Shown here: positions 1 to 24,003 of the stretch, piece by piece
Position numbering within the stretch: the first letter of the stretch is position 1
Layout of the letters: every line of letters starts with the position of its first letter
Origin: Jannaschia sp. CCS1
GTDB lineage: Bacteria; Pseudomonadota; Alphaproteobacteria; Rhodobacterales; Rhodobacteraceae
Assembly (NCBI RefSeq): GCF_000013565.1
Contig: NC_007802.1
Span: 372,001-436,000, forward strand
Reading direction: 5' to 3'
Length of the DNA stretch: 64,000 bases
Notes under the pieces: model-generated
Databases searched by the model: none
Seen by the model: only the letters and a program-made list of their open reading frames with translations
Told to the model about the DNA's origin: nothing
Translations under genes and position numbers: made by a program

Positions 1-1
1 C

Positions 2-832
2 TGGGGTCGCCTGCCCGATGAAGGCGCGATGGCGCGGTTGCTGGACGCCGCGCGCAGCTTCTGGTCGGTCCCCGATGGGGTGGAGGTCATTGCCGCCGCC
101 GGGGCCTCTCCGCTGATCGCGCGGATGCCGGATATGACGGCCTTCTCGGGCGCGTATATCCCGGTGCCCACCTATAACGAATACGCGGCGGCCTTTGCGG
201 CGCGGGGGCGGCTGAACGACCCGCTGAACCCCCAAAATCCCGTGCATGTCTACGTACATCCCAACAATCCTGATGGGCGCATGTGGCCGGGATCGGTCAT
301 TGGCGGGCGGCCCCTGACGATCATCGACGAAAGTTTCTGCGATACCGTCCCGGACAAGACCCACATGGCCCGCGCGGCAGAGCCCGGGGTGATTATCCTC
401 AAGAGTTTCGGCAAATTCTGGGGTCTCGCGGGCCTGCGCCTTGGGTTCGCGATTGCAGCGCCCGAGACGTTTGCGCGGTCGTCGTCATCCGCGTCGTTGC
501 AGGAGCTGATGGGGCCGTGGTCCGTCTCCGGCCCCGCGCTGGAGATCGGGGCGCGTGCCTTGCAGGACCACGCCTGGGCCGAGGCGACGCGGGTGCGTCT
601 GGGTCACGATGCCGCCCGGCTCGATGATATGCTGCTATCCGCTGGGGCGGAGATCGTGGGCGGCACGACGCTGTTTCGCACCTATGCATGGGAGCAGGGG
701 GCAGAGGTCTGGCAAAAACGTCTGGCCGAGCATCGCATCTGGTCACGCATTTTCCCCTATTCCACCAATTGGATGCGCCTGGGTCTTCCCGCCACGGATG
801 AGGATTGGGCGCGCCTGGACGCGGCCCTTTGA
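2..832 (+). CDS. cobC: Threonine-phosphate decarboxylase CobC, 5' end cut by window
   Basis: A PLP-dependent class I/II aminotransferase-fold enzyme that should decarboxylate L-threonine O-3-phosphate to (R)-1-aminopropan-2-yl phosphate, the aminopropanol arm of cobalamin. The frame is open to the window edge (W-G-R-L-P-D-E-G-A precedes the first ATG at 29), so the gene starts upstream. Visible signatures are HPNNPDGR near residue 86, DESF near 109, and the PLP lysine in SFGKFWGLAGLRLG (about Lys138 of the visible part). The stop overlaps the TTG proposed for cobD, which supports a cobalamin pair. A histidinol-phosphate aminotransferase is the alternative; the cobD neighbour favours CobC. Confidence 0.88.
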   Translation, partial: WGRLPDEGAMARLLDAARSFWSVPDGVEVIAAAGASPLIARMPDMTAFSGAYIPVPTYNEYAAAFAARGRLNDPLNPQNPVHVYVHPNNPDGRMWPGSVIGGRPLTIIDESFCDTVPDKTHMARAAEPGVIILKSFGKFWGLAGLRLGFAIAAPETFARSSSSASLQELMGPWSVSGPALEIGARALQDHAWAEATRVRLGHDAARLDDMLLSAGAEIVGGTTLFRTYAWEQGAEVWQKRLAEHRIWSRIFPYSTNWMRLGLPATDEDWARLDAAL

Positions 833-1788
833 TCGCCACCGCTGGGTTGCTGTTTGCTGCGATGATCCTGGATGCGCTGGTGGGCGAGCCCCGGTGGCTG
901 TGGTCCCGGATCCCGCATCCGATCGTGCTGATGGGGCGGTTGATCGACTGGTGCGATGCCACGTTCAATCGCGGGGCGCAGCGGCTCAACGGGGGTCTGG
1001 TCATGGCAGCACTTGGCCTGAGCGCATTGGGGTTGGGTTGGGTCATTGCCGCCCTGCCGCTCGGGTGGCTGTGGCAAATCCTGATCGCCGCGGTTTTGCT
1101 GGCGCAGAGGTCTTTGGTGGACCATGTGGCGGCGGTCGCTGTCGGTCTCCGCCGGTCGCTGGCGGACGGCAAGCGCGCCGTTGCGATGATCGTCGGGCGC
1201 GACACCGGGCCATTGGATGACGCCGCCGTGGCCCGCGCCGCGATTGAGAGTGCGGCAGAGAACATGTCCGATGGTGTCGTCGCGCCCGCATTCTGGTTTC
1301 TGGTCGGCGGGCTGCCCGGGTTATTGTTGTATAAGATCACGAACACGGCGGATTCGATGATCGGCCATCGCACGCCCCGGCACGAGGCCTTCGGATGGGC
1401 GGCGGCGCGGTTCGATGACGTGTTGAACTATGTCCCCGCGCGGCTGACGGCCTTGTTGATCGCACTCACCCACGGGTTTGACGCGCTGCGCTGTGCCTAT
1501 CGCGACGGTCCCAAACATCGGTCGGTGAATGCGGGCTGGCCGGAGGCGGCGATGGCCTCCGCCCTCGGTCTGTCCTTGTCGGGCTCGCGCGCCTATGGCG
1601 GGGAGATGACAGAGGATCCGGCCCTGAACGCGACCGGGTCACGCGATGCCACCCCCGGCGATATAAAAGCGGCGATCCGCGTTCTGTGGCGCGTCTGGTG
1701 GGCGATGCTTGGCGGCAGCGTCATCTGCATCCTTCTCGGCGGGTGGGGGGCGCTGCTTCTTGCCACGGTTTTGCTTGCGCTCATCTGA
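829..1788 (+). CDS. cobD: Adenosylcobinamide-phosphate synthase CobD/CbiB
   Basis: An integral inner-membrane enzyme that joins the aminopropanol phosphate made by CobC to adenosylcobyric acid. The protein is about 319 aa with several hydrophobic segments and the family start LDALVGEPRW...HPIVLMGRLI; the central GRDT and AAIESAAENMSDGVVAP motifs are conserved, as is NTADSMIGHR. I chose the TTG at 829, which overlaps the cobC stop in TTGA and gives the usual short hydrophobic N-terminus. An ATG at 862 is possible but would trim the first membrane segment; a TTG at 805 would lie well inside cobC. Translation is probably coupled to cobC. Confidence 0.9.
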   Translation: MIATAGLLFAAMILDALVGEPRWLWSRIPHPIVLMGRLIDWCDATFNRGAQRLNGGLVMAALGLSALGLGWVIAALPLGWLWQILIAAVLLAQRSLVDHVAAVAVGLRRSLADGKRAVAMIVGRDTGPLDDAAVARAAIESAAENMSDGVVAPAFWFLVGGLPGLLLYKITNTADSMIGHRTPRHEAFGWAAARFDDVLNYVPARLTALLIALTHGFDALRCAYRDGPKHRSVNAGWPEAAMASALGLSLSGSRAYGGEMTEDPALNATGSRDATPGDIKAAIRVLWRVWWAMLGGSVICILLGGWGALLLATVLLALI

Positions 1789-1854
1789 ACGGTTGCGAGC
1801 CGCGCCAACCACGCTAATCTCCCCCAAATCCATAAGTTATGAGGTTGTCCCCCC

Positions 1855-3027
1855 ATGCGTTTTCTCGCCCCGCTTCTTTTGTCTCTTTCCATCGGCACGG
1901 CCGCCCATGCGCAGCAATGCGGCGGCGATTTCAACCAGTTTGTTCAGGGCCTGCGGGCGGAAGCCGCAGAGCGGGGCCATAGTCAGGAGGCTATCGACGG
2001 CTTCTTCCGCCACGCCAGCTATTATCAGCGCGCTCTGGATGCGGACCGGCGTCAGGGCATCTTCACCGTGCCCTTCACCGATTTCGCCCGCCGTCTGATC
2101 AGTCAGGGCCGCATGGACAATGGACGGCGCAACGCCGATCGTCAGGCCGCCACCTTCGCCGAGATTGAGCGGCGTTTCGGCGTATCCCAGGGCATTCTTC
2201 TGGCCTTCTGGGCGTTCGAGACGGATTACGGCGCGTTTCAGGGCGATTACAACACGCTCGACAGCCTCGTGACCCTCGCCCACGATTGCCGCCGGCCCGA
2301 GCTGTTCCGCCCCGAAGTGTTCGGCGCTCTGGAATTGTACGAGATGGGCGATTTCGACCCGGTGAACACCCAAGGCGCCTGGGCCGGGGAAATCGGCATG
2401 GTCCAGATGCTGCCCGAAGATATCGTCGCCCACGGCATTGACGGCGACGGCGACGGCCACGTCTACCTGCAAACCTCCGCGCCCGATGCGCTGATGTCGG
2501 GTGCCAACATCCTCTCGTCCCTCGGCTGGCGTCCCGGTGAGCCCTGGCTCGTCGAAATCACCGTTCCGCAGGATCTGGACTGGTATCAGACCGGCATCCA
2601 CACCACCCGCTCCGTCGCCGACTGGCAGGCCGATGGTGTGGCGGGTCGCTCGGGCGCCCTGCCGATGCCAAACGCCCAGGCCTCGATCGTCCTGCCCCAA
2701 GGCCGCAATGGCCCCGCCTTCATGGCCTACCAGAACTTCAACGTCCTCTTTGAATGGAACCAGTCCTTCACCTACGTCCTGACCGCCGCCTATTTCGCAA
2801 CCCGTCTGGAAGGTGCGCCGGTGTTTGACGCGCGCAACCCGGAACCGGGCCTGGGCGGGGACCAGATGCGCCGCCTCCAGACCGCCCTCCAGGCGCGGGG
2901 CTATGACGTGGGGCGCATCGACGGCATCCTCGGCGCTGGCACCCGGGCCGCCGTGCGGGAAGAACAGCGCCGCCTGGGCCTGCCCGCCGATGCCTGGCCC
3001 ACCAGCGCCCTGTTAAACGCGCTGTAA
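1855..3027 (+). CDS. MltB-family lytic murein transglycosylase with C-terminal peptidoglycan-binding domain
   Basis: A periplasmic enzyme predicted to cleave the MurNAc-GlcNAc bond of peptidoglycan with formation of the 1,6-anhydro product. Residues 1-19 form a signal peptide ending AHA-Q. The catalytic domain covers about 25-310; Glu122 in FWAFETDYG matches the catalytic glutamate of MltB, and the GEIGMVQMLPEDIVAHGIDG stretch is typical of the family. Residues about 335-390 (RRLQTALQARGYDVGRIDG, then GAGTRAAV) form a PG_binding_1 domain. There is no lipobox, so it is soluble rather than a lipoprotein like E. coli MltB. It stands alone, 66 bp after cobD. Confidence 0.9.
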   Translation: MRFLAPLLLSLSIGTAAHAQQCGGDFNQFVQGLRAEAAERGHSQEAIDGFFRHASYYQRALDADRRQGIFTVPFTDFARRLISQGRMDNGRRNADRQAATFAEIERRFGVSQGILLAFWAFETDYGAFQGDYNTLDSLVTLAHDCRRPELFRPEVFGALELYEMGDFDPVNTQGAWAGEIGMVQMLPEDIVAHGIDGDGDGHVYLQTSAPDALMSGANILSSLGWRPGEPWLVEITVPQDLDWYQTGIHTTRSVADWQADGVAGRSGALPMPNAQASIVLPQGRNGPAFMAYQNFNVLFEWNQSFTYVLTAAYFATRLEGAPVFDARNPEPGLGGDQMRRLQTALQARGYDVGRIDGILGAGTRAAVREEQRRLGLPADAWPTSALLNAL

Positions 3028-3049
3028 TCTTCAATACCGCGCAATTTGT

Positions 3050-3074
3050 CCGAAAACCGGTTCCCACTTTTCGG
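3050..3074. repeat. Alphaproteobacterial intergenic inverted element (CCGAAAA...TTTTCGG)
   Basis: A 25-bp element with 7-bp arms CCGAAAA (3050-3056) and TTTTCGG (3068-3074) around the core CCGGTTCCCAC. From memory the same core recurs many times in intergenic regions of rhizobia and other Alphaproteobacteria. It sits 22 bp after the lytic transglycosylase stop. I see only this copy in the window. Function unknown. Confidence 0.6.
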
Positions 3075-3087
3075 ATCGCGCTCTGAA

Positions 3088-3104
3088 TTAACCAGACGCT
3101 AACC
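3088..3104 (+). promoter_or_regulatory. Candidate CtrA-type box upstream of the ParB-like gene
   Basis: The sequence TTAA-N7-CTAACC differs by one base from the CtrA consensus TTAA-N7-TTAAC of Alphaproteobacteria. It lies about 50 bp before the ParB-like start, a plausible promoter position. This is a pattern match only. Confidence 0.3.
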
Positions 3105-3113
3105 AAACCACCC

Positions 3114-3146
3114 GATCCTGCTTGCCCCCCAACCGCAAGCAGGATC
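3114..3146 (+). promoter_or_regulatory. Perfect 12-bp hairpin that contains the ribosome binding site of the ParB-like gene
   Basis: The arms GATCCTGCTTGC (3114-3125) and GCAAGCAGGATC (3135-3146) are exact reverse complements around a 9-nt C/A loop. The only Shine-Dalgarno-like sequence for the ATG at 3153, AGGA at 3141-3144 with 8-nt spacing, lies inside the 3' arm. If the leader folds, the site is masked. There is no U-tract, so a terminator is less likely than a translational or protein-binding operator. Confidence 0.65.
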
Positions 3147-3152
3147 GCGCCC

Positions 3153-3998
3153 ATGCACGACATCCACCACATCCCCCTCTCTGACATCGACGCCGATGCC
3201 CTCCCCCGGGACCGCATCTCCCTCGCGCCCTCAGCGCTGTCGGAACTGCAAGCCTCCATCGCGTCCCTCGGCCTCACCCACCCCATTGAGGTCTGGGCCA
3301 AGCACGATCCCTTACCCGACGCGCCCCGCCATGGCCTGATCTCCGGCCTGCGCCGCCTCACCGCCATGCGCGCGCTGGGCCACACCACCATTCCCGCCTT
3401 CATCCGCGCCCCCTCCGACATCGCCGAGGCCATGACCCGTATGGTCGCCGAGAATGAGATCCGCGCCGCCATTTCCCCCTGGGAGAAGGGCCGCCTTGTC
3501 ACCGAAGCGGTGGCTGAGGGCCTCTTCCCCACCTTTGACGCCGCCACCGACAGCCTCTACCGCACGCTCGACCGCCACCGCCGCGCCCGCATCCGTGCCA
3601 TGGCAGACGTCGTGGCCGAGATCGGCGACCACCTGCTCACATCGCCCGAGACCCTCAGTCAGAACCAGATCACCCGCATCGCCTTCGCCCTGCGTGCCGA
3701 CCTCGGCCCCCTCATCACCACCGCCCTGCGCACCTCCAAACAGAAATCCCCCGACGCCCAATGGAAAACCCTCCTGCCGATTTTACTGGAAGCCGAAGAA
3801 ACCGCCCGCACCCCCCGCGCGCCCCTCTACCGTGAAGGCCGCCCCCGCCGCATGGCCCAAGTGCGGTCCAAACTGCACATTAGACGCGAGAGAACCCCCG
3901 ACGGCTGGTCCCTGCGGTTCACAGGCCCAGAGGCGACCGGGCCTTTGATGGAGGACATCATGGACCGCGTGGAAGGGGACTTTGGCCAGACCCGATGA
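3153..3998 (+). CDS. ParB N-terminal-domain protein (orphan, ParB/RepB/Spo0J-like)
   Basis: A 281-aa protein that opens with a ParB/Srx-type domain (about residues 5-105): IPLSDIDADALPRDR, then SALSELQASIASLGL, then the GLISGLRRLTAMRALG box, then AENEIRAAISPWEKGRLV. Residues about 100-190 look like the helix-turn-helix region that follows in ParB and RepB. The C-terminus is basic and ends in a short Trp-rich segment. There is no ParA partner and no 16-bp parS palindrome that I can see, so it is not the main chromosomal parB. Its leader carries the perfect hairpin at 3114-3146, which could be an autoregulatory target. It abuts the foreign TIGR04141 segment. Confidence 0.75.
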   Translation: MHDIHHIPLSDIDADALPRDRISLAPSALSELQASIASLGLTHPIEVWAKHDPLPDAPRHGLISGLRRLTAMRALGHTTIPAFIRAPSDIAEAMTRMVAENEIRAAISPWEKGRLVTEAVAEGLFPTFDAATDSLYRTLDRHRRARIRAMADVVAEIGDHLLTSPETLSQNQITRIAFALRADLGPLITTALRTSKQKSPDAQWKTLLPILLEAEETARTPRAPLYREGRPRRMAQVRSKLHIRRERTPDGWSLRFTGPEATGPLMEDIMDRVEGDFGQTR

Positions 3999-4007
3999 AA
4001 TCGGGTC
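3989..4007 (+). terminator. Hairpin spanning the ParB-like stop codon
   Basis: GACCCGAT (3989-3996), loop GAA, ATCGGGTC (4000-4007): an 8-bp perfect stem with a 3-nt loop that includes the TGA stop (3996-3998). A G-rich run follows rather than a T-tract, so intrinsic termination is uncertain. Confidence 0.4.
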
Positions 4008-4023
4008 GGGGTGCTGGCAAGCT
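4008..4023. repeat. Left candidate end of the AT-rich island (imperfect inverted repeat)
   Basis: GGGGTGCT, GG, CAAGCT. The reverse complement of 6007-6020 reads GGGGTGCT then CAAGCT, identical except for a 2-base gap. The two copies bound the AT-rich segment. No target-site duplication is visible outside them. Confidence 0.35.
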
Positions 4024-4199
4024 CTTTTCAGCAGGAAGAGATGCCAGGAGGGGGGTGAATATCATTTGTGGTATGGGGCCAAATGAGTTCCTGAAACCAG
4101 TGTCACAGGGGTACAAGTGAAGAAACATCAGTGCTTTCGTTGACGTGAGCTCTATGCCTTGTAAGAATATACTTAGGTTTTTCATAAGGTGTATCGGCA

Positions 4200-5846
4200 T
4201 TGGCAAAAACGAGGAGTTATTCTCTTTACCTAGTAAAATCTGATGTGGAAGATTTTGAGGATATTTTTAGTGAAAATGCTAGAGATAAAATTAAAGCTGG
4301 TGACGCTTCCTTAAGTGAATCTAGTGAGCTTGGTGACCAAGCAGTAGTTTACATTTTCCCCGGTCCACCGAAGCCTCCATCATGGCTGTCTGAAGTCACA
4401 ACAGTGTTCCAAGGCATTCCGGCACTTACAAACAGGTCTTCTTGTGCTGTAGTCGTCTTCAAGTATGCCAGTCGTATTTTTGTGACGGCATTTGCGCACG
4501 GTTGGCAATATTTGGACGACTCAAAAATTGAGTCAGACTTTGGTCTAATGGTAGCCATAAATTCTCTTGACGACGCCAAGGTCAAACGCATTGACAGCAG
4601 TCATTTAGGTGAAGCGATGAAGGGGGTATCGCAGTCTGCGTTCCAACGGGATTTGCAGGCTTTCGGCGTAGATGAAGCACTGGACTTGGTCCGTCGTATC
4701 TCTGGTCGAGTCGAGGATGATGATTTCGCAAGCAGCATCTCTGGCGCTACTGGGCTCAAGATTACGCGTGAAATGAACCTTTTCGATCTTCCACAAATTG
4801 CTGAGGAAGCACTCTCGCGTTCAAAGTCTAAGGATTACCGGAATACTGGCTTCTACATCATCGATAAGGTCCGCCCTATACTCGATAGAGTTGTTCTCGC
4901 GACGTTGGACCAAAAGGCGGTAGATGTCATCAAGACTGGTGATGACAACTTTGAACTTTCAATGCCTGGTTGGTCGGACGATGACGTTGTGTACTACGGT
5001 CTCTATGGCCCACGTTTAAGGGGGCGTTTTCCTGATTTGCTGATGTCCAATTATCGGGCTGCGCTGGGCTCAACTGAACTTGCAAAACTGGACGTAAACA
5101 AAATTCAGAAGCATGGAGTTTTGGCGGAATTTAACAATGATGGCGGTGCAAAGAAAAGATGGAGTCTCAAGAAAGCGTTGGTCGGTTCTATCGTAGATAG
5201 CGGTGGGCTCTATGCCATAAGCGAAGGCGAGTGGTACCGCTTAGATGAACAATTTAAGGCGGACGTTGATGCAGGATTTGCAACACTCAAAGAAGGTTGG
5301 TCAAATCCTCCTGAAGTTATCAAAAAAATGGTATCTGATGATGGAAAGAAAACAGGATTTGAGAGCGAGTTTTCCTACAATGAGAGATGCGCCAATAAGT
5401 ATGGCCAAGTCTTACTTGATCAAAGGATACTCACAGTACCAGCGATCCCATATGGCAAGTTTGAAGCCGCTGACCTCCTTGATATTGAAGGTAAACGCCT
5501 CATTCACGTGAAAAAAAGCTCTCGGCAGTCCAGTGTTTTAAGTCACTTCTTTAAGCAGGGTAGTAACTCGGCTCGAATATTGAAAACAATACCAGAGGCT
5601 CGCGAAGCGTTGGTCTCTAAAGTAAGGGATCTGACAGATGACGTGACAGCCGACTCGTTGCAGACGGCCATGGGGGAAGCTATGTCTGGGTGGAAGATAG
5701 AATTCCATATTGTCGATGCTCCCCGCAAAGACGGTACATTTATGATCCCATTCTTTAGTCGGATCACGCTCCGCGATGAAAGCCGCACTTTGAAGGGAAT
5801 GACTTATGGCGTATCTTTGCGTTTCATACCCATGCCCTCGACATAA
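4200..5846 (+). CDS. TIGR04141/DUF6119-type sporadically distributed protein, probable defence gene on an AT-rich island
   Basis: A 548-aa protein that I recognise as the family annotated TIGR04141 or DUF6119, known for patchy distribution and no settled function. The start MAKTRSYSLYLVK and the C-terminal half fit that family. The TTG at 4200 is preceded by AAGGTG with about 8-nt spacing. Residues 390-460 resemble a PD-(D/E)XK nuclease core: an N-terminal helix (YNERCANKYGQVLLDQR), Asp425 in FEAADLL, then LIHVKK with Lys438 and LSHFFKQGSNS. The usual acidic residue before the lysine is His436. No signal peptide or membrane segment is seen. Hand counts of three 60-base rows give 37, 38 and 52% GC, against 68% for a row of smc, so it was probably acquired. 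A role in phage defence is inference. Confidence 0.72.
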   Translation: MAKTRSYSLYLVKSDVEDFEDIFSENARDKIKAGDASLSESSELGDQAVVYIFPGPPKPPSWLSEVTTVFQGIPALTNRSSCAVVVFKYASRIFVTAFAHGWQYLDDSKIESDFGLMVAINSLDDAKVKRIDSSHLGEAMKGVSQSAFQRDLQAFGVDEALDLVRRISGRVEDDDFASSISGATGLKITREMNLFDLPQIAEEALSRSKSKDYRNTGFYIIDKVRPILDRVVLATLDQKAVDVIKTGDDNFELSMPGWSDDDVVYYGLYGPRLRGRFPDLLMSNYRAALGSTELAKLDVNKIQKHGVLAEFNNDGGAKKRWSLKKALVGSIVDSGGLYAISEGEWYRLDEQFKADVDAGFATLKEGWSNPPEVIKKMVSDDGKKTGFESEFSYNERCANKYGQVLLDQRILTVPAIPYGKFEAADLLDIEGKRLIHVKKSSRQSSVLSHFFKQGSNSARILKTIPEAREALVSKVRDLTDDVTADSLQTAMGEAMSGWKIEFHIVDAPRKDGTFMIPFFSRITLRDESRTLKGMTYGVSLRFIPMPST

Positions 5847-6000
5847 CCTTTCAGACGTGAGGTCAAGACCGTTCCACTATCACTGGATGTCTCGCCCAAC
5901 ACCAACCCTCAAACCCCAGTAACCCTCCGCAAATTCACCCGCTCAAACCTCAACAAATCCAAAAAAACGAAAACAAAACGAAAACAACAACTTAACCCCC

Positions 6001-6020
6001 TGCTCAAGCTTGAGCACCCC
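6001..6020. repeat. 16-bp palindrome and right candidate end of the AT-rich island, 3' of smc
   Basis: TGCTCAAGCTTGAGCA (6001-6016) is a perfect palindrome followed by CCCC. It lies 8 bp beyond the smc stop. Read on the minus strand, a 6-bp stem with an AGCT loop followed by a G-run and T-rich sequence could also be a weak smc terminator. Bases 6007-6020 match the island's left end in inverted orientation. Confidence 0.45.
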
Positions 6021-6023
6021 GGA

Positions 6024-9000
6024 TCAGGCCACCAGAGTCTCCGCTACTTTCAGGTCCACGGAGACCAGCTGAGACACCCCCTGCTCCCCCATCGTCACCC
6101 CGAACAGCCGGTCCATGCGGGCCATCGTGACGGCGTGGTGGGTGATCGTCAGGAACCGCGTGTTGGTGCTCCGCGTCATCTCATCGAGCATGTCGCAGAA
6201 CCGGGTCACATTGGCATCATCCAGCGGCGCGTCGACCTCATCGAGCACACAGATCGGCGCAGGGTTGGCCAAGAAGACCCCAAAGATCAGCGCCAGCGCC
6301 GTCAGCGTCTGCTCCCCCCCCGATAGCAGCGACAGGGTCGAGAGTTTCTTGCCCGGCGGCTGACACAGGATCTCCAGCCCCGCTTCCAGCGGATCATCGG
6401 ATTCCACCAGCACCAACCGCGCCTCCCCGCCGCCAAAAAGGTGCGTGAACAGGCGGGAGAAGTTGGTGTTCACCTCGTCAAACGCCTTCAGAAGCCGCTC
6501 CCGCCCTTCCTTGTTCAGCGAGTTGATCCCCGTCCGCAGCTTGGCGATCGCTTCTTCCAGATCGGTCTTTTCGGAGGCCAGCGTGTCGTGTTCGTCCTGC
6601 ACCTCGTGGCTGTCCTCTTCGGCGCGGAGGTTCACGGCGCCAAGGGCATCGCGCTGACGGCGCAGGCGCATGACGTCCTGCTCAATCCGGTCAGCGGGGG
6701 GCATGGGGGCGGGCAGATCGCCAAGGGTGTCCAGCAGCGCCTCCGGCGTCAGCTCCATCTCCTCGGTGATGCGGTCGGCGGCGGTTCGTACGGCTTCCAT
6801 CGCGGCATCACGGCGGGCCTCGGACGCGGCGCGCAGTTCCCGCGCTTCGCCTGCCGCGCGTTCGGTGTCCCGCTCAGCCCCGCTAGCCGCACGGAGGTTC
6901 ATTTCACCCACCGACAGCGCATCGGCAGAGGTCGCCTTGCGTGCCTCGGCTTGCGTGATCTGAATTGCCAATTGCTCTCGCCGCATCGCCACCCGAGCGG
7001 GCTTTTCGCGCGCCTCCGCCAGGGCGGTTTCGGCCTCACCCCGACGCTTTTCCAACTCCGCCAGACGCGACGCGGCGTTGGTCAGGCGGTTCTGCCAATT
7101 GGTGATTTCGGTGCCGATCTTGGCGATGCGCGACACTCGATCCTCACCATCGCGCTTGATCTCATCGAAGGCGGCGCGCTTGGACAACATCGTCATCCGC
7201 GCCGCCTCAACGGTCACTTTGACATCGTCCAGACGGCCGCGTACGGCGTCCAGATCGTCCAGCTCGGCCAGTGCATCCCGGGCCCGGGTCAGCTCCGCGC
7301 GGGCGGTGTCGGCCTCCTCCGCGTGGCGTGATGCGGTCAGGCGAAGGGTCTCCAACTTGCCATCCAACACGCTTTGGTCCGCCTCGGCCCGGGCGGCGGC
7401 GCGGCTGGCCTGGCTCAGCTGCGTTTCGGCATCCCGCCGTGCGGTGCGGGCGGACTTGTCGGCCTCCGTCAGATGGGCCAACCGCTCGGCCAGCGCCTTA
7501 TGGGCGGCCTTCGCATCATCGGCCTTGTCGCGGGCCCGCAGACGTTCTTCCTCCAGTTCCGACAACCGGTTCGCCTGTTCCAACCGACGCGCGGCGGTGG
7601 ACACGGCGTCGGCGGCGGCCACGGCAAATCCGTCCCAGCGCCACAGGTCACCGGCCTTGCTGACAAGGCGCTGGCCGGGCTGAAGCGTCGAGTGCAGACG
7701 CGGCCCGTCGGCGGCGTCGATAATGCCGATATGCGACAGCCTGCGGGCCAACACGTCCGGGGCCTGGGCAACATCCGCAGCCGGTTGTGCGCCTTCGGGC
7801 AGAGGGGCCGCGGCGTCATAGTCCGGCAGATCCGTCCATCCGGTCGCGCCTTCAGTATCCGCCCGCGCGGCCTTCAGGTCATCGGACAGCGCGGCACCGA
7901 TTGCCGCCTCAAACCCAGGCGATACCTTAATTTCATCAAGGACTTGCGTGCCGTCGCCCCGTTCGCGTTCCAGCACGCGGGCCAGGGCTGTAACCTCCGC
8001 ATCCAACGTGCCCGCGCGCCCTTCCGCCTCGGACCGGGCAGAGCGCGCGTCGGTCTCTTTGGCTTGCGCGTCTGCCCGCGCGGTCTCGGTCTCGACCAGC
8101 GTTTCCTCGGCACGCGCGGCAAGGTCGGTGGCGCGGGTCAGGGCATCCGCGGTCTCCTCCGCCTCGCGCTTGAGCGTTTGCAGTCGGTCCGCCGCATCGC
8201 TGGCGGCTTGCTCTGCGGATTGCGCATCGGTTGTGTTGCGGGCCACCGCCTTTTCGGCCTCTCCCATCCGGCGCTGAATGGCCTGGTAACGCGCGGCAAG
8301 GGCGGCAGATTGTTCTGTGAGGTCAGAGAGTTCCGCCTCCTGCCCCGCAAGAACGCTGCGCGCGTCTGTCACTGCATCTCGGGCATCGCCAAGACGCGCA
8401 TCCTGGCCCTTCTGGGCGGTCTGCAATTCGGTGCGTTCCGCCTGCAATCGCGCAACGGTTTCGCCTGCGTCGGAGTTCAGCGCCTCTTCCCGCTCCCGAT
8501 CCTTGTCGATCTGGGTGATCCGGTTCGTCAGCGTCTCCACGGCGGCGGCGGCGCGGTCGGCCTCCGCCTGCAAATTGTCGCGTTCGACCAGCAAACGTTG
8601 GAGAATGGCGGCAGCAATCGTGTCTTCTTCGCGCAGCGGTGGCAGGTCTTCTTCGGCCTGCTCGCGGGCCTCGACGGCGGTGCGGGCCGCGACTTCGGCC
8701 TGGGCGGCAGCGGTCAGACCGTCGCGCAATGCGTCCTCGGCGCGAAGGCGCGCAGCATCGGCGTCGCGCCACCGCACGAACAGCAGGAGCCCTTCGGTCA
8801 GGCGCAGCTCTGTCCCGATCTCGCGATACCGCGCGGCCTGTTTTGCCTGTCTTGCCAAGGTGTTAAGCTGAGACGCCAACTGATCCAACACGTCGTCAAT
8901 TCGCGCCAGATTGGCCTCTGCTCCCTTCAGCTTCAGCTCTGCTTCATGGCGGCGCTGATAGAGGCCCGAGATCCCGGCGGCTTCCTCCAACACCCGCCGA

Positions 9001-9479
9001 CGGGCTTTGGGGCGGGCGTTGATCAACTCGGAAATCTGGCCCTGACGCACCAATGCGGGGCTGTGGGCACCGGTAGAGGCATCGGCAAACAGCATCGAGA
9101 CGTCGCGGGCGCGGACATCTTTTCCATTTAGTTTATAAGCACTTCCGGCATCTCGGGTGATGCGGCGGATGATGTCGATCTGGTCTTCTTCGTTGAATCC
9201 CGCGGGCGCAAGGCGGTCTGTGTTGTCGATCTGCAGGGAGACTTCGGCAAAGTTGCGGGCGTTGCGCGTTGCGGCGCCGCCGAAAATCACATCCTCCATC
9301 CCTGCGCCGCGCATGGCAGTGGGGCGGTTTTCGCCCATCACCCAACGTAACGCCTCGAGAAGATTGGATTTTCCGCAACCATTCGGCCCGACAACACCGG
9401 TCAGGCCGTCCGCGATCACGAGGTCCGTGGGATCGACGAAGGACTTAAATCCGTTGAGTCTGAGCTTCGTGAAGCGCAC
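6024..9479 (-). CDS. smc: Chromosome segregation ATPase SMC
   Basis: The structural-maintenance-of-chromosomes subunit that dimerises, binds DNA and extrudes loops to organise the nucleoid. The protein is 1151 aa, the normal length. The N-terminal head has MRFTKLRLNGFKSFVDPT and the Walker A box GPNGCGKSN (about 32-40). Long Ala/Glu/Arg-rich coiled coils follow, with a hinge at roughly 500-640 (LARRLSHIGIIDAADG, LVSKAGDLWRWDG). The C-terminal head has LSLLSGGEQTLTALALIFG and the Walker B stretch CVLDEVDAPLDDANV. The kleisin partners scpA and scpB are not in the window. It is convergent with the island gene at its 3' end. Confidence 0.97.
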   Translation of the reverse strand: MRFTKLRLNGFKSFVDPTDLVIADGLTGVVGPNGCGKSNLLEALRWVMGENRPTAMRGAGMEDVIFGGAATRNARNFAEVSLQIDNTDRLAPAGFNEEDQIDIIRRITRDAGSAYKLNGKDVRARDVSMLFADASTGAHSPALVRQGQISELINARPKARRRVLEEAAGISGLYQRRHEAELKLKGAEANLARIDDVLDQLASQLNTLARQAKQAARYREIGTELRLTEGLLLFVRWRDADAARLRAEDALRDGLTAAAQAEVAARTAVEAREQAEEDLPPLREEDTIAAAILQRLLVERDNLQAEADRAAAAVETLTNRITQIDKDREREEALNSDAGETVARLQAERTELQTAQKGQDARLGDARDAVTDARSVLAGQEAELSDLTEQSAALAARYQAIQRRMGEAEKAVARNTTDAQSAEQAASDAADRLQTLKREAEETADALTRATDLAARAEETLVETETARADAQAKETDARSARSEAEGRAGTLDAEVTALARVLERERGDGTQVLDEIKVSPGFEAAIGAALSDDLKAARADTEGATGWTDLPDYDAAAPLPEGAQPAADVAQAPDVLARRLSHIGIIDAADGPRLHSTLQPGQRLVSKAGDLWRWDGFAVAAADAVSTAARRLEQANRLSELEEERLRARDKADDAKAAHKALAERLAHLTEADKSARTARRDAETQLSQASRAAARAEADQSVLDGKLETLRLTASRHAEEADTARAELTRARDALAELDDLDAVRGRLDDVKVTVEAARMTMLSKRAAFDEIKRDGEDRVSRIAKIGTEITNWQNRLTNAASRLAELEKRRGEAETALAEAREKPARVAMRREQLAIQITQAEARKATSADALSVGEMNLRAASGAERDTERAAGEARELRAASEARRDAAMEAVRTAADRITEEMELTPEALLDTLGDLPAPMPPADRIEQDVMRLRRQRDALGAVNLRAEEDSHEVQDEHDTLASEKTDLEEAIAKLRTGINSLNKEGRERLLKAFDEVNTNFSRLFTHLFGGGEARLVLVESDDPLEAGLEILCQPPGKKLSTLSLLSGGEQTLTALALIFGVFLANPAPICVLDEVDAPLDDANVTRFCDMLDEMTRSTNTRFLTITHHAVTMARMDRLFGVTMGEQGVSQLVSVDLKVAETLVA

Positions 9480-9643
9480 CTGTGCTGCCCTTTTGCGATG
9501 GCGATTCCGTGAGCGTGCACCATACGCGACGGGCTGCGGGGCGAGTCAACGGAGATGGGGCGTATATCGTGGCGATCGGCGGGTTATCCCCAAGATATGC
9601 GGTAGGTCGCGAAACCTATGTTTTGTCCAGAGATGAAGCACAA

Positions 9644-9665
9644 GTATATCAATGCTATATCAATT
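9644..9665. repeat. Two-iteron ATTGATATA motif, copy 1
   Basis: On the minus strand it reads as ATTGATATA twice, 11 bp apart (one helical turn), preceded by an extra A and ending in C. It overlaps the stop codon of the XRE gene. A 20-of-22 identical copy lies at 55264-55285. The AT-rich motif stands out in a GC-rich genome. Confidence 0.6.
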
Positions 9666-9890
9666 CGGGTCCAACACAGGCGCCATGACCTCCAACACGT
9701 CGCCGGGCTGACACTCCAGCGCAGCGCAGATCTTGGCCAGCGTCTCGAACCGGATGCCCTTCACCTTGCCGCTCTTCAACAGGCTCAGATTCGCTTCCGT
9801 GATACCGATCTGCGCCGCAAGGTCCCGGCCCTTCATCTTGCGTCGCGCCATCATGACGTCGAGCCGGACGATGACCTCCAACGTCTGCAT
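9660..9890 (-). CDS. Small XRE-family regulator (YozG-like)
   Basis: A 76-aa Cro/C1-type helix-turn-helix protein with almost nothing outside the DNA-binding domain: IVRLDVMMARRKMKGRDLAA, QIGITEANLSLLKSGKVKGI, RFETLAKICAALECQPGDVL. Its ATG overlaps the stop of the DUF2975 gene (TGATG), so the two are translated together. YozG-like regulators paired with DUF2975 membrane proteins recur in many bacteria, but the signal they sense is not settled. It probably controls its own operon or the divergent lipoprotein. Confidence 0.85.
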   Translation of the reverse strand: MQTLEVIVRLDVMMARRKMKGRDLAAQIGITEANLSLLKSGKVKGIRFETLAKICAALECQPGDVLEVMAPVLDPN

Positions 9891-10426
9891 CAGATGAAGC
9901 CCCGGTTCTCGGCGGCGATGCGCGCGGCCTCGGACATGGCAAGGCCGATGACAGTCATCAACCCGGCGGCGAGAAACAGGAACAGATCGGTGTTGCTGAC
10001 CCCGATTGCCAGGCTGCGTGCGCCCGGCGGATTGGCGGCGGTCAGGGCCAGGATAGTGAGGGTGTTGGACACCACGCCATAGATCGCGAGCGCCAGCAAC
10101 AGCCCTCCGATGCGGCGGATTCGATGCGCGACCTCTGCCCCCAAAACATCCCCGATGGCGAACAGGACAAGCAGCGCGCGGATGTTCCAGAGCAGGACGC
10201 AGACAAGCGCCACGGACACCAGGGCGATGGCATAGACGGCGACCCAGGTGCCCTTTGGAATAACGTCAGGCAGGGTCGTAGAGGCATAGGCGTCGCGCAA
10301 GTAGGCGGCGTCAAAATACCCCGACAGCGCCAGGACAGCCAGCGTGACGGGATAGGCGAAAAGCGCGGCGGTCGTCAGATACGACAACGGGCGCGCGATG
10401 CGGCGGGTTTGCAAAAGGTTATCCAT
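9890..10426 (-). CDS. DUF2975 inner-membrane protein
   Basis: A 178-aa protein with four predicted membrane helices (about residues 15-36, 63-88, 106-130 and 143-165). The IRALLVLFAIGDVLGAEVAHRIRRIG segment, split here by a helix boundary, is the hallmark of DUF2975. I chose the ATG at 10426 because everything upstream in frame is low-complexity sequence antisense to the lipoprotein gene. The ribosome binding site candidate AAGGGG is unusually close to the ATG. It is the first gene of a two-gene operon with the XRE regulator. Confidence 0.82.
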   Translation of the reverse strand: MDNLLQTRRIARPLSYLTTAALFAYPVTLAVLALSGYFDAAYLRDAYASTTLPDVIPKGTWVAVYAIALVSVALVCVLLWNIRALLVLFAIGDVLGAEVAHRIRRIGGLLLALAIYGVVSNTLTILALTAANPPGARSLAIGVSNTDLFLFLAAGLMTVIGLAMSEAARIAAENRGFI

Positions 10427-10461
10427 GACCCCTTGTAAAAGAGAAAAAACTTTCTGTAAAA

Positions 10462-10473
10462 CAATAATTATTG
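10462..10473. promoter_or_regulatory. 12-bp palindrome in the divergent promoter region
   Basis: CAATAATTATTG is a perfect palindrome in the 67-bp AT-rich gap between the DUF2975-XRE operon and the divergent lipoprotein gene. Its position suits an operator for the XRE protein. That link is inference. Confidence 0.35.
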
Positions 10474-10493
10474 GATTCAGGAAAGGTGATGAG

Positions 10494-11015
10494 ATGAAAC
10501 ACATGATCCCCGCCCTTGGCATTCTGGCCCTGACGGGCTGTCTCAGCGTGAACCCGGTGACGCTTTTGCGCCTGGCAGCGTTGGACCCGTTGACCGCAGA
10601 CCCCACCGGGATGGCTGTGCAAATGGATCTGCCCGACGGGGTTGGAGTGACCGACGGATCCGCCTTCGTGCGGTTGCAGGCTGAAACGGAAGGGGGTGCG
10701 CAATTTGACGAGGTGTTTGCCCTTGTCGCCTCTGCGCAACAGGTCTGGCGCATCGATCCGAACGAACAGGATCGGTTCCGGGCTGCGCAGGCGCGGGCTG
10801 CGGCGTGGGAGCGGGCGGCACCAGATGCGACCAATGGCAGTTTCGGAGCCAGCTTTTCGCCTTGTCGTCTCGGCGAAGGCCCGGCTGAGGACGCCTTTGT
10901 GAGTATCAACATTCAGCTTGAGCCTGAGGCGTCGTTCTTGCCGCTCCTGTCAGAGGTCCCGATTCTGAGTCTGGTTGAGGAGGGTGACATGGAAGCGTTG
11001 AGGCCATGTGGGTAG
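10494..11015 (+). CDS. Putative lipoprotein of unknown function
   Basis: A 173-aa protein beginning MKHMIPALGILALTGCLS, a short lipoprotein signal with the lipobox LTGC (Cys17). The ATG at 10494 follows AGGAAAGG at good spacing. The mature part has no motif I know; it contains beta-rich stretches and a late Cys pair (FSPCRLG and the terminal CG). It is divergent from the DUF2975-XRE operon, 67 bp away, and could be controlled by it. No function assigned. Confidence 0.7.
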   Translation: MKHMIPALGILALTGCLSVNPVTLLRLAALDPLTADPTGMAVQMDLPDGVGVTDGSAFVRLQAETEGGAQFDEVFALVASAQQVWRIDPNEQDRFRAAQARAAAWERAAPDATNGSFGASFSPCRLGEGPAEDAFVSINIQLEPEASFLPLLSEVPILSLVEEGDMEALRPCG

Positions 11016-11087
11016 ACCAAAGCGCAGCCGATCAGGCACGTCACCCCCGACAGAAGCGGCAAGTTTCTCCACATAAGCCAAACATGG

Positions 11088-11102
11088 TTAACAAAACGTT
11101 AC
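11088..11102 (+). promoter_or_regulatory. Candidate CtrA-type box upstream of rsfS
   Basis: TTAA-N7-TTAC about 100 bp before rsfS; the reverse complement reads GTAA-N7-TTAACC. One mismatch to the CtrA consensus on either reading. Pattern match only. Confidence 0.3.
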
Positions 11103-11202
11103 GGCAACACTTGGCTGACCCGCTGTCAGGTGTGGTTGAGAATAGGGGGGTGCACTGTTATATTGAAATAACTCGGCGTCGGGGTTTCGCAGGCGCATTC
11201 GT

Positions 11203-11664
11203 ATGGAGGATAGAGTCCTGACCGGACTTAACCAAGCAGAGGCCAAGACCTCTGCCACTGCGGCGACAGCCCAAGACCGGGGCGCGCGCACCCAAACCGC
11301 GTATAGCAGCGAAGAGTTGCTTGAGCGCATTCTGACTTCCCTGACTGACGACAAAGCCGAAGACGTCGTGCAGATTGATCTGCGCGGAAAGTCCTCGATT
11401 GGCGATTACATGGTCGTGGCTTCTGGCCGGTCGACCCGTCAAGTGTCCGCCATGGCAGAGAAGCTGGTCGACAAATTGAAGACCGACTTCGGCTTATATT
11501 CCAAGATCGAAGGCAAGGATTCCGGCGATTGGGTGCTGATCGACACGGCAGATGTCATCGTCCATATTTTCCGGCCTGAGGTGCGAGAATTCTATCAGCT
11601 GGAGAAGATGTGGCAGCCAGAGGCGCCTGAGACGACCCCGGGCCCCGGGGCCGCGGCGCCCTGA
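11203..11664 (+). CDS. rsfS: Ribosome silencing factor RsfS (Iojap family)
   Basis: Binds uL14 on the 50S subunit and blocks subunit joining when nutrients are short. The core DDKAEDVVQIDLRGKSSIGD, YMVVASGRSTRQVSAMAEKL, GDWVLIDTADVIVHIFRPEV and REFYQLEKMW are diagnostic. The N-terminus up to about residue 35 is a variable Ala/Thr-rich tail. The start is not certain: ATG 11203 contains the only good GGAGG (11205-11209), which would instead serve a CTG at 11218. Its stop overlaps the proposed rlmH start. A Pro/Gly-rich C-terminal tail ends the protein. Confidence 0.92.
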   Translation: MEDRVLTGLNQAEAKTSATAATAQDRGARTQTAYSSEELLERILTSLTDDKAEDVVQIDLRGKSSIGDYMVVASGRSTRQVSAMAEKLVDKLKTDFGLYSKIEGKDSGDWVLIDTADVIVHIFRPEVREFYQLEKMWQPEAPETTPGPGAAAP

Positions 11665-12128
11665 ACGTCCACCTATGCGTCGCGGGCCGTCTGAAGGCAG
11701 GCCCCGAGAAGACGTTGATCGACGATTATTTAAGACGTTTCGACAAGACGGGCCGGGGCCTGGGCCTATCCCTTGGGCAGGTCGTGGAGGTCGAAAACCG
11801 CAAAGGCGGCGGCATGGCGGCGGAGGCGGATTTGATTCGCGCGCGCCTGCCCGGTGGTGTCTTTTGGGTGATGGATGAACGCGGCGATGTGATGACGTCG
11901 CCCGGGTTCGCGGATCGCTTAGGCGCGCAGAGAGACCGGGGCGCGGGCGATCTGACGATGGTTATCGGCGGGGCGGACGGAATTGACCCCACGCTGAGGG
12001 ACGAGGCGGGGATGGCGATTTCCTTCGGCAAGATGGTCTGGCCGCATATGCTGGCGCGGGTCATGCTGAGTGAGCAATTGTACCGGGCCGCGTCTATTCT
12101 GGCGGGCGGCCCGTATCACCGGGTCTAG
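11661..12128 (+). CDS. rlmH: 23S rRNA (pseudouridine1915-N3)-methyltransferase RlmH, probable CTG start
   Basis: A small SPOUT methyltransferase that modifies pseudouridine 1915 in helix 69 of 23S rRNA. The core FVIGGADG-type loop is here LTMVIGGADGIDP, and the C-terminal knot LARVMLSEQLYRAASILAGG and PYHRV is intact. The conserved first strand VHLCVAGRLKAGPEKTLIDD is coded from 11664, but the frame has a stop at 11628-11630 and no ATG, GTG or TTG until 11715, which would remove that strand. A CTG at 11661 overlaps the rsfS stop (CTGA) and gives 155 aa, the length of E. coli RlmH. I infer CTG initiation coupled to rsfS. Confidence 0.85.
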   Translation: MNVHLCVAGRLKAGPEKTLIDDYLRRFDKTGRGLGLSLGQVVEVENRKGGGMAAEADLIRARLPGGVFWVMDERGDVMTSPGFADRLGAQRDRGAGDLTMVIGGADGIDPTLRDEAGMAISFGKMVWPHMLARVMLSEQLYRAASILAGGPYHRV

Positions 12129-12339
12129 GACAGACCGGATTTTGCCGATCCTGGCCACATCAGGATCCGCGGCCTGTGACGCCTGAGCCGCTGCACGCCT
12201 GATGTAAGCGGCCCCACGGCCCGGAAGGCCCGCCAATGCCCGGGCGGTGACGTCCGGCACGGTCGTCGTTTCGGTGAGAAGGACGATTGCAGCGCGGAGG
12301 CGGCCTCCATAGAACGGTTTGGTAAAGGAGTTCTCACCC

Positions 12340-13854
12340 ATGACAGACCACCCGCGCCCCGTTGTTTTGTGCATTCTGGACGGCTGGGGCATTGGTCAGA
12401 CGCAAGCAGACAACGCGCCGCTTCTGGCGGACACGCCTGTGATGGATGACCTGATGGCGCGGTGTCCCCATGCGACGCTGCTGACGCATGGGCGTGATGT
12501 GGGCCTGCCGGAGGGGCAGATGGGCAATTCCGAGGTCGGCCACACCAATATCGGCGCGGGGCGTGTGGTGAAAATGGATCTGGTGGAGATCAACGACGCG
12601 ATTGAGGCGGGGGAATTTGCCGGGCGGGCGGCTTTGGTGGCGTTTGTTGAGACGTTGAAGAAAAGCGGCGGAACGGCGCATCTGATGGGGCTGGTGAGCG
12701 ACGGCGGCGTGCATTCGCAGCTGGCGCATCTGGAGGCGGCGGTGGCGGTTCTGGTGGAGGCGGGCGTGCCGGTGGCCGTTCACGCGATCACCGATGGGCG
12801 CGATGTTGCCCCGAAATCGGCAGACGGGTTTTTGCGGGGTCTGACACTGCCGGAGGGGGCGAAGATCGCGACGGTCTGCGGGCGCTATTTCGCGCTGGAC
12901 CGCGACACTCGCTGGGACCGGGTGGAAAGGGCTTACAGCGCGATGGTGCGTGGAGAGGGCGACGGGGCCAACGACGCCTTGGGCGCTGTGGCGCAGGCCT
13001 ATGACGCGGACAAGACCGATGAGTTCATTCCGCCGACGGTCGTGGGTGACTACGCCGGGATGCGCGATGGGGATGGTATTTTCATGCTGAACTACCGGGC
13101 GGACCGCGCGCGAGAAATTTTGTCAGCGCTAGGTGATCAGGCGTTTGACGGCTTCGATGTGACCGGTCGGCCCAAGTTCGCGGCCAGGCTGGGGATGGTC
13201 GATTATTCCAAAGCCCATGACGCCTATATGACGACGGTGTTCCCGAAGCAGGAGATCGTAAACACGCTGGGCGAATGGGTCTCCAAAGCGGGGCTGCGGC
13301 AGTTCCGCGTGGCGGAGACGGAAAAGTACCCCCATGTGACGTTTTTCCTGAATGGCGGCGTCGAGGTGCCGGAGCCGGGGGAAGACCGGGAGATGCCGAA
13401 ATCACCCAATGTCGCGACCTATGATTTGCAGCCCGAGATGAGCGCGCGCGAGGTGACGGACCTTCTGGTGCGCGCGATCCGGGAGCCTTACGACCTGATT
13501 GTGGTGAACTTCGCCAATCCTGACATGGTGGGTCATACCGGCGATTTGCAGGCTGCGATTGCGGCGTGTGAGGCGGTGGATGCGGGGCTTGGTCAGGCGG
13601 TGGCGGCGCTGGAAGAGATGGGTGGCGCGATGATCGTCTGCGCCGATCACGGGAATTGCGAGATGATGGTGGACCCGGAGACGGGCGGGCCGCACACGGC
13701 CCATACGACGAACCTTGTGCCGGTGGTGATGGTGGGCGGACCAGCGGGCGCGGGCCTGCGGGACGGGCGGCTGGCGGATCTGGCGCCATCGCTTTTGGCC
13801 TTGATGGGGCTGGAGCAACCGGCGGAGATGACGGGGGAGAGTTTGATCCGGTGA
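12340..13854 (+). CDS. gpmI: 2,3-bisphosphoglycerate-independent phosphoglycerate mutase
   Basis: Interconverts 3- and 2-phosphoglycerate in glycolysis and gluconeogenesis using two Mn ions and a phosphoserine. The protein is 504 aa. LCILDGWGIG at the N-terminus and MGNSEVGHTNIGAGRVV with the catalytic serine are clear, as are HAITDGRDVAPKSADGF, MLNYRADRAREI and the C-terminal metal site CADHGNCE with GGPHTAHTTN. AAGGAG at 12325-12330 sets the ATG at 12340 rather than a TTG at 12319. The stop overlaps the GTG of envC, so the block gpmI-envC-ctpA-rppH is probably one transcript. Confidence 0.97.
   Translation: MTDHPRPVVLCILDGWGIGQTQADNAPLLADTPVMDDLMARCPHATLLTHGRDVGLPEGQMGNSEVGHTNIGAGRVVKMDLVEINDAIEAGEFAGRAALVAFVETLKKSGGTAHLMGLVSDGGVHSQLAHLEAAVAVLVEAGVPVAVHAITDGRDVAPKSADGFLRGLTLPEGAKIATVCGRYFALDRDTRWDRVERAYSAMVRGEGDGANDALGAVAQAYDADKTDEFIPPTVVGDYAGMRDGDGIFMLNYRADRAREILSALGDQAFDGFDVTGRPKFAARLGMVDYSKAHDAYMTTVFPKQEIVNTLGEWVSKAGLRQFRVAETEKYPHVTFFLNGGVEVPEPGEDREMPKSPNVATYDLQPEMSAREVTDLLVRAIREPYDLIVVNFANPDMVGHTGDLQAAIAACEAVDAGLGQAVAALEEMGGAMIVCADHGNCEMMVDPETGGPHTAHTTNLVPVVMVGGPAGAGLRDGRLADLAPSLLALMGLEQPAEMTGESLIR

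Positions 13855-22794: not shown

Positions 22795-24003
<1,209 letters not shown>

Follow-up and report, generated by a model that had tools for sequence, protein, structure and literature searches.

We focus here on a 64,000-nucleotide stretch of DNA from Jannaschia sp. CCS1 (contig NC_007802.1, positions 372,001 to 436,000; hereafter the window, in whose numbering coordinates are given), and particularly on an AT-rich segment that carries a single gene of the DUF6119/TIGR04141 family. This segment fills a slot on the 3' side of a ParB-like gene, between that gene and smc. At this position the DNA has a foreign composition, the cargo is replaced between nearly identical carriers, and much of the other cargo found there is of defence character. 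The company that the DUF6119 gene keeps in the slots of relatives makes it a likely nuclease-type defence gene. Genomes and loci are cited below by number (G and L), G000 being the genome of the window.

The AT-rich segment and its single gene

GC content is 0.45-0.48 in 500-base steps across positions 4001-6000, and 0.55-0.71 elsewhere in window positions 1-14000. Seven such steps fall under the mean minus 2 standard deviations (mean 0.626, standard deviation 0.043), and they are the only ones to do so in the 64 kb, so that the stretch is indeed the window's only GC break, as an initial annotation made from the sequence alone had it. The GC content at third codon positions of the DUF6119 gene is 0.45; in the 33 other long open reading frames of the window (at least 250 amino acids, chosen by one script) it ranges from 0.62 to 0.84. 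The features on which the argument rests are the following, in order of position.

1855-3027, + strand: mltB-like gene, the conserved left neighbour in the genus (matched in genus loci; named by eye)
3153-3998, + strand: ParB-like gene marking the slot, with a ParB_N domain, 281 amino acids (PF02195, 30.8 bits, cut-off 26.3)
3999-4057, no strand: left edge common to G008, a stem-loop-like stretch (79.7% identity, 59 bases)
4058-5905, no strand: swapped AT-rich cargo, about 1.85 kb (edges and GC content; interior without a DNA match to the ten other genus slots)
4186-4191, + strand: AAGGTG, Shine-Dalgarno-like, eight bases before the TTG start (sequence reading)
4200-5846, + strand: DUF6119/TIGR04141 gene, 548 amino acids, predicted stand-alone anti-phage effector (PF19614, TIGR04141)
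5313-5843, + strand: C-terminal domain, residues 372-548, with a PD-(D/E)XK-like topology (AlphaFold2 models)
5367-5513, + strand: putative active site, E390 (5367-5369), E422 (5463-5465), D425 (5472-5474), H436 (5505-5507) and K438 (5511-5513), each invariant in 65 of 65 sequences
5906-6023, no strand: right slot edge, conserved in close relatives (80-85% identity with G001, G003 and G008)
6001-6016, no strand: 16-base perfect palindrome, dispersed (13 exact copies in this genome)
6024-9479, - strand: smc, the conserved neighbour on the right (matched in all 13 genus genomes)

The gene has an intact reading frame. In profile searches its product matches PF19614 with 441 bits (cut-off 27, residues 8-544) and TIGR04141 with 479.5 bits (cut-off 35, residues 8-543), in both cases over the whole profile, which makes it a full-length member of the family to which it had been assigned by eye. 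It also matches phrog_18579, an unnamed phage family, weakly (61 bits), and sequence and profile searches against the PDB gave nothing meaningful.

The island had been placed at 4008-6020. It is real, but the replaced part is narrower. The first 59 bases past the ParB-like gene match those of G008, and the last 118 bases or so before the smc stop match G001, G003 and G008 over 110-120 bases. Because these edges are common to relatives, the swapped segment can be narrowed to about 4058-5905. Within it there is a single open reading frame of more than 100 amino acids and neither an integrase nor a recombinase gene; attachment repeats were not formally searched for. An integrase-borne island or an integron cassette, which would call for an integrase, a recombinase or such repeats at the slot, was therefore set aside.

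A ParB-linked slot in the genus

The ParB-like protein has a match in 12 of the 13 genus genomes (E<=0.001), at this place in 11. The two others are G007, with only a weak match elsewhere, and G005, with none. In all 11 loci the ParB-like gene is separated from smc by 1.85-2.27 kb of AT-rich content, which amounts to one gene in 10 of them. This content is never the same: none of the 55 pairs of slots has interior DNA in common, and the sole similarity among the cargo proteins is a short one between two reverse transcriptases. What these genes are can often be named. The slots hold Drt2 in G001 (402 bits), Drt8 in G006 (484 bits), a type II-A retron in G011 (reverse transcriptase 355 bits, NDT 162 bits), HEC-07 in G002 (594 bits) and an AAA ATPase of the OLD/Ari type in G012 (86 bits). 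That of G003 holds an AIPR protein (Pfam 68.5 bits; just 36 for AbiU of PADLOC), and that of G004 an HATPase at 24.7 bits, under the Pfam cut-off. A zinc finger below the Pfam cut-off, with no PADLOC match, is found in G008, and the slots of G009 and G010 have neither a Pfam nor a PADLOC match. The 11 slots thus present the same flanks with different defence cargo in relatives, which is what defines a defence hotspot.

The two genomes with no ParB-like gene here show what the place may have looked like earlier. In G007 (L080, 5945-6535), an exported-looking open reading frame of 196 amino acids, of native composition, stands between mltB and smc; in G005, whose assembly is 83% complete, about 94 bases are left there, by eye a remnant of that same frame. 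This mltB-smc layout may be the older arrangement.

In 6 of the 11 slots (e.g., L044:1012-1186) the ParB-like gene is followed, ahead of the cargo, by a GC-rich element of 175 bp with hairpin-like repeats, which ends sharply at the cargo. Weaker copies are dispersed, with up to 17 matches in one genome, and an Rfam search of four loci, three of them holding the element (L042, L043 and L044), returned nothing. We considered it as an attachment site specific to the slot and dropped this idea, since it is the best copy of a dispersed repeat.

The slot outside the genus and the swapping of its cargo

The ParB-like protein is found much more widely, in 62 of 295 genomes of the taxonomic family (E<=1e-30), many of these being plasmid-type by eye, and in 38 of 390 genomes in a search of the order (E<=1e-45). 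A GC drop of more than 0.10 follows the gene on its 3' side in 11 of 11 genus loci and in 13 of 19 family loci; on its 5' side there is none in the 30 loci. The 19 are taken from 29 family loci, L088 (broken, at a contig end) and L102-L110 having been excluded beforehand. All 15 new loci returned by the order search obey a similar rule, L254 and L259 with only about 400 bases of downstream sequence and L254 marginally (0.62).

The chromosomal sites are several. Among the 31 non-genus loci in the tree of ParB-like proteins (which excludes L088, L102-L110, L254, L259 and L264), 16 have clpB and/or a dinB-like gene close by, 2 aroC and 2 mltB, and 11 are at unnamed sites, neighbours being named by eye. 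The tree tracks these sites, with 12 label changes against 24.6 in shuffles, which suggests that the carrier is largely inherited while its cargo changes.

This replacement can be seen directly between close carriers. The ParB-like proteins of G755 and G867 are 98.5% identical and their right flanks 91.4% over 2,477 bases, and the 2.0-2.3 kb of cargo have no DNA match, one being RT_UG20 and the other a PDC-M38A-type gene with a second open reading frame. The same is true for G203 and G782, in which proteins 95.6% identical and flanks 95.8% identical over 2,788 bases enclose 1.8-1.9 kb without a DNA match. In the genus, G000, G001, G003 and G008, with ParB-like proteins 89-93% identical, match in DNA at the slot edges only.

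By GC profile the cargo measures about 1-3.5 kb, with one to about four genes outside the genus. No integrase gene was seen among the slot open reading frames read; an insertion sequence transposase-like frame was noted by eye in L120. Cargo outside the genus includes, by PADLOC, RT_UG20 (658 bits), Drt6 (547), HerA (570), HEC-06/GmrSD (534), PDC-S33 (294; RelA_SpoT by Pfam) and a partial PDC-M38A (155). OLD-type ATPases occur in L115, L127 and L270, TOPRIM being above its cut-off in L127 only, and GmrSD_N, DUF4062, Panacea, DUF3800 and Schlafen AlbA_2 were also found.

A second DUF6119 gene belongs to this cargo. It lies in the slot of G869, from another genus, with the ParB-like gene on one side and, on the other, a native gene followed by a dinB-like gene; it encodes 582 amino acids, has a GC content of 0.40 and matches PF19614 with 300 bits. 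As its product is only 22% identical to that of the window, the family has probably entered the slot at least twice.

The C-terminal domain and the nuclease question

Conservation was read from homologues collected with a two-motif scan built on a six-member alignment. It gave 275 matches, of which 80 were taken; 73 passed a length filter, and 64 of these, hand-picked so as to reduce near-copies, were aligned with the window protein (65 sequences in all). Since two motifs served for the selection, part of the conservation at residues ~113-122 and ~447-456 comes from the way in which the set was built. All 65 sequences have E390, D407, E422, D425, H436, K438, S444 and H449 unchanged, and the first six of these residues are outside both motifs. 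A DUF6119 protein found by way of the ParB-like gene (L265) also keeps the E, the D and the HxK.

AlphaFold2 models the whole protein, from these 65 sequences, with a predicted local distance difference test (pLDDT) of 86.4 and a predicted template modelling score (pTM) of 0.81, and residues 372-548 alone with a pLDDT of 93.9 and a pTM of 0.89. In the whole model the domain runs as helix 390-401, strands 410-412, 420-422, 426-428 and 433-439, helices 444-463, 465-478 and 481-492, strand 499-506, helix 518-533 and strand 537-544. E390 opens the first helix, D425 comes just before strand 426-428, and H436 and K438 are in strand 433-439; the numbering of Asp425, His436 and Lys438 in the initial annotation, which saw a PD-(D/E)XK-like core here, is right. 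The predicted order appears compatible, in both models, with the alpha-beta-beta-beta-alpha-beta order of PD-(D/E)XK nucleases such as Mrr, the HsdR N-terminal domain and the CdiA-CT type, and the E...D...xxK succession resembles theirs. The idea of such a core fits the predicted topology and the invariant residues; it has no significant counterpart in fold and family searches.

Indeed, three results weigh against a nuclease. The protein has HxK and not (D/E)xK, His436 taking the (D/E) place in 65 of 65, so that the catalytic D with (D/E)xK is incomplete; PD-(D/E)XK members with other residues at this position exist. Foldseek against the PDB, with the whole model and with the domain, gave no match at E<=0.001, the top rows being unrelated proteins. 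Finally, the domain searched against Pfam matched no nuclease catalytic domain among the 25 of 31 families listed, a weak row being FAN1 TPR, with one member (E 0.084). Foldseek against a viral library likewise gave no match at E<=0.001. Rows below significance include CdiA-CT 4g6u (E 0.31, probability 0.54, target template modelling (TM) score 0.40), 4zqu (0.39, 0.20, 0.40) and two phage endonuclease I entries, none of which is used as proof. As Foldseek gave no significant match, nuclease activity is something that we infer.

Another nuclease type was tried and rejected. The HKD motif of phospholipase D is HxK-x4-D, with the Asp five residues past the Lys. Here that position corresponds to Ser444, invariant in 65 of 65 (the window protein has one extra residue before it), and an Asp near HxK occurs at 439 only, in 12 of the 65, apart from single rows.

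The domain could also be something other than a nuclease in a gene that is nevertheless defence cargo, i.e., another metal- or nucleotide-dependent enzyme, or a sensor of a host partner acting through the invariant E/D/H/K cluster. The want of a significant match to any nuclease fold or family and the His in place of D/E would both be explained in this way. The helix-strand-strand-strand-helix-strand order, in which D425 precedes one core strand and the following strand carries HxK, an arrangement found in PD-(D/E)XK enzymes, would be left without a reason, and so would the linkage to restriction operons described below. We hold this alternative to be possible, on the unlikely side. The models suggest that the domain is probably a divergent PD-(D/E)XK domain with a His for D/E, and that the DUF6119 protein is a nuclease seems to us rather probable.

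Distribution of the family and its link to type I restriction-modification

The distribution of the DUF6119 family is sporadic, in keeping with what had been proposed. A match is found in 1 of the 13 genus genomes, that of the window, and in none of the other 12, which rules out a gene fixed here in every relative. Three of the 295 genomes in the taxonomic family have a match, each in a different genus, as do 11 of 398 genomes in the phylum, 22 of 72,556 plasmid records and 1 of 50,697 phage records. The phage match is partial (73% of the query, 24% identity) and comes from a gene at the end of Pseudomonas phage vB_PaeS-D14B, flanked by an integrase gene and by small hypothetical genes. A direct sequence search with the window protein in viral and genome contig collections returned no relative, and no account of DUF6119/TIGR04141 was located in the openly licensed PubMed Central literature.

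The neighbours of the homologues connect the family to type I restriction-modification (R-M). Of 80 homologue loci, 23 contain hsdR together with hsdM, and none of 32 control loci does (Fisher p 1.9e-4), with 1.20 Mb of sequence for the former and 0.37 Mb for the latter. In four annotated plasmids, among eight neighbourhoods viewed of the 22 plasmid matches, the gene is between hsdS and hsdR, in each case with a SprT-like gene after it. In Rhizobium sp. AB2/73 it adjoins hsdR, and in several loci (e.g., L144, L171, L204 and L213) its stop overlaps the hsdR start by four bases. Other annotated neighbours are NACHT, TIR with deaminase genes, and an S8 peptidase with an ATPase.

One may then ask whether the window gene is a type I R-M accessory stranded without its operon, inactive or neutral here. 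Those 23 loci are what such a history would predict, and no hsd gene, hence no type I R-M component, lies inside the window slot. The remaining 57 loci, however, have no hsdR-hsdM pair in the stretch covered (some being short), slot DUF6119 genes stand without hsd genes in two genera, and the reading frame is intact, all of which renders this explanation improbable.

Some neighbours were recorded as side observations. A DarT-like gene, by eye only, is beside the closest DUF6119 relative (L045 in G175, 73% identical) at about 8254-8784, and a serine-recombinase-like gene lies farther along from DUF6119 in that locus. Again by eye, L050 has a DarT-like gene and L046 a GmrSD-like gene. A protein of 446 amino acids with no Pfam match is encoded directly upstream of DUF6119 in 7 of the 80 homologue loci, with or without hsd genes (loci: L134:5466-6806, L204, L205, L206, L207, L209, L211 and L212), and is a possible partner.

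Weighing the defence reading

Thirty slots were scanned with PADLOC, usually with one protein where the cargo has several genes: 14 have a match of at least 100 bits, 3 a weak one and 13 none at the thresholds used. The thirty do not include L123, L126, L266, L271, L274, L275, L277 and L278, nor L254 and L259, which are short, nor those family loci that show no AT drop. Several of these results do not favour a defence role. The window protein matches none of the families of PADLOC-DB 2.0.0 at E<=10, and the second slot DUF6119 matches no model at E<=1e-5. The negative slots are G000, G004, G008, G009, G010, L112, L113, L121, L122, L129, L265, L272 and L276, the weak ones G003, G012 and L115, and among the 14 strong ones two are partial (L118, L268) and one, L270, is a generic ATPase. 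The lower-scoring, longer and by eye plasmid-type loci L102-L110 mostly have no AT drop. In a control set of 10 native genes from the window, 2 likewise score at least 100 bits, namely smc (185 bits, an ATPase-type model) and a CcrM-type orphan DNA methyltransferase at 22822-24003 (oMTase, 641 bits), which is probably an ordinary cell-cycle enzyme. Since native genes reach this score, the bare PADLOC rate is weak evidence, and the kinds of cargo gene are stronger evidence than the rate.

That the slot instead serves other ends, such as selfish maintenance of the toxin-antitoxin type or general mobile-element genes, would suit the Panacea antitoxin-like pair of L129 and a number of slot proteins that are unknown or look exported (G008, L112), and is very improbable given that defence types make up most of the identifiable cargo (DRT, retron, OLD-type, GmrSD, HerA, RelA_SpoT, AIPR).

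A one-gene defence role, which the initial annotation had advanced from patchy distribution and nuclease-like features, has thus gained strong support from context: like slots hold DRT, retron, OLD-type, GmrSD and HerA genes, a distant second DUF6119 occupies one of them, and the survey of homologues reached type I R-M operons. The slot itself lay beyond what that annotation claimed. We regard it as very probable that the DUF6119 gene is defence cargo; defence cargo and nuclease, taken together, is only a little less credible than the nuclease by itself.

The following mechanism can then be proposed. The DUF6119 gene would be the present occupant of a defence slot 3' of the ParB-like gene, refilled by horizontal transfer, and its product would be a stand-alone anti-phage (or anti-plasmid) effector. 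The N-terminal ~370 residues would sense or bind the invader, and the PD-(D/E)XK-like C-terminal domain would cut nucleic acid, more likely DNA, with Glu390, Glu422, Asp425, His436 and Lys438 grouped around a metal ion. In other bacteria, where the gene sits in hsdM-hsdS-DUF6119-hsdR operons, it may act as an extra restriction or back-up module.

The ParB-like protein and the dispersed palindrome

ParB and Noc are DNA-binding CTPases. The ParB-like protein resembles them by its ParB_N domain and by a GxRR motif (G65, R67, R68) and E100 N101, invariant in 42 homologues, and the genus genomes that hold its gene also carry dispersed palindromes. It differs from them in that it falls under the TIGR00180 and Noc cut-offs and its gene is beside mltB and smc. 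A second ParB-like match, 34% identical, was observed on the 86-kb second contig of this genome (G000:C1:58218-58925).

A perfect palindrome of at least 14 bases marks the right edge of 10 of the 11 genus slots, and the form of G006 has one mismatched pair. Its sequence varies between genomes, and no such palindrome was found at the two sites without a ParB-like gene (G005, G007). That of the window (TGCTCAAGCTTGAGCA) has 13 exact copies in G000, 46 in G003, 10 in G008, 2 in G001 and none in the other nine genus genomes, including G007, although its smc (93% identity) is as close as those of G001, G003 and G008. In a set of 198 family genomes it turns up in just two, this genome and another with a single copy. 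The broader pattern TGYKCAMGCKTGMRCA is matched 2-46 times per genome in the 11 that have the ParB-like gene and never in G005 and G007 (p 0.013), a test that is post hoc because the pattern was built from the slot palindromes of those 11 genomes; it also admits imperfect palindromes, and another set of palindromes may exist in G005 and G007. About five bases from several copies of the 16-base form is a stretch resembling TTAAG or TAAG, and most copies have no clear T-run after them. The palindrome could be a site to which the ParB-like protein binds, or it could form the stem of a terminator.

The ParB-like gene might even be the carrier of an undescribed defence-exchange unit, in which a ParB/Noc-type clamp on its own family of 16-base palindromes keeps, silences or exchanges small AT-rich defence cargo, the DUF6119 nuclease-type effector among it; we consider this doubtful.

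Relation to known systems and significance

Defence hotspots have been described in Pseudomonas aeruginosa (PMC10250203) and, as mobile-island hotspots, in Escherichia coli (PMC10121019), where core genes flank a position with strain-varying defence genes. The slot is like them in its fixed flanks and changing defence genes. These papers report larger islands, or prophages, integrative and conjugative elements and transposons, with medians of 26 kb and 6 kb for cDHS1 and cDHS2 of P. aeruginosa (PMC10250203), whereas the present slot measures about 1-3.5 kb and is tied to a ParB-like gene at several chromosomal sites. It is not described among the matches listed for ParB with defence or hotspots, and for gene transfer agents, in the openly licensed PubMed Central literature. 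That gene transfer agents set a limit to the size of the cargo would be a speculation, on which those listed matches offered nothing direct. DUF6119, for its part, is a family without an assigned function, and the window gene is alone in a ParB-linked slot, unlike its relatives in type I R-M operons.

If this reading is true, the 3' side of the ParB-like gene would be a search handle in the Rhodobacteraceae, a short place, often with one immune gene and without the bulk of a genomic island, in which to look for more defence genes. It also raises the question of why the ParB-like gene stays at several sites while neighbouring pieces of similar size get replaced. DUF6119/TIGR04141 would gain a testable role, with specified residues as targets for mutation, and a possible extra component would be added to some of the type I restriction operons.

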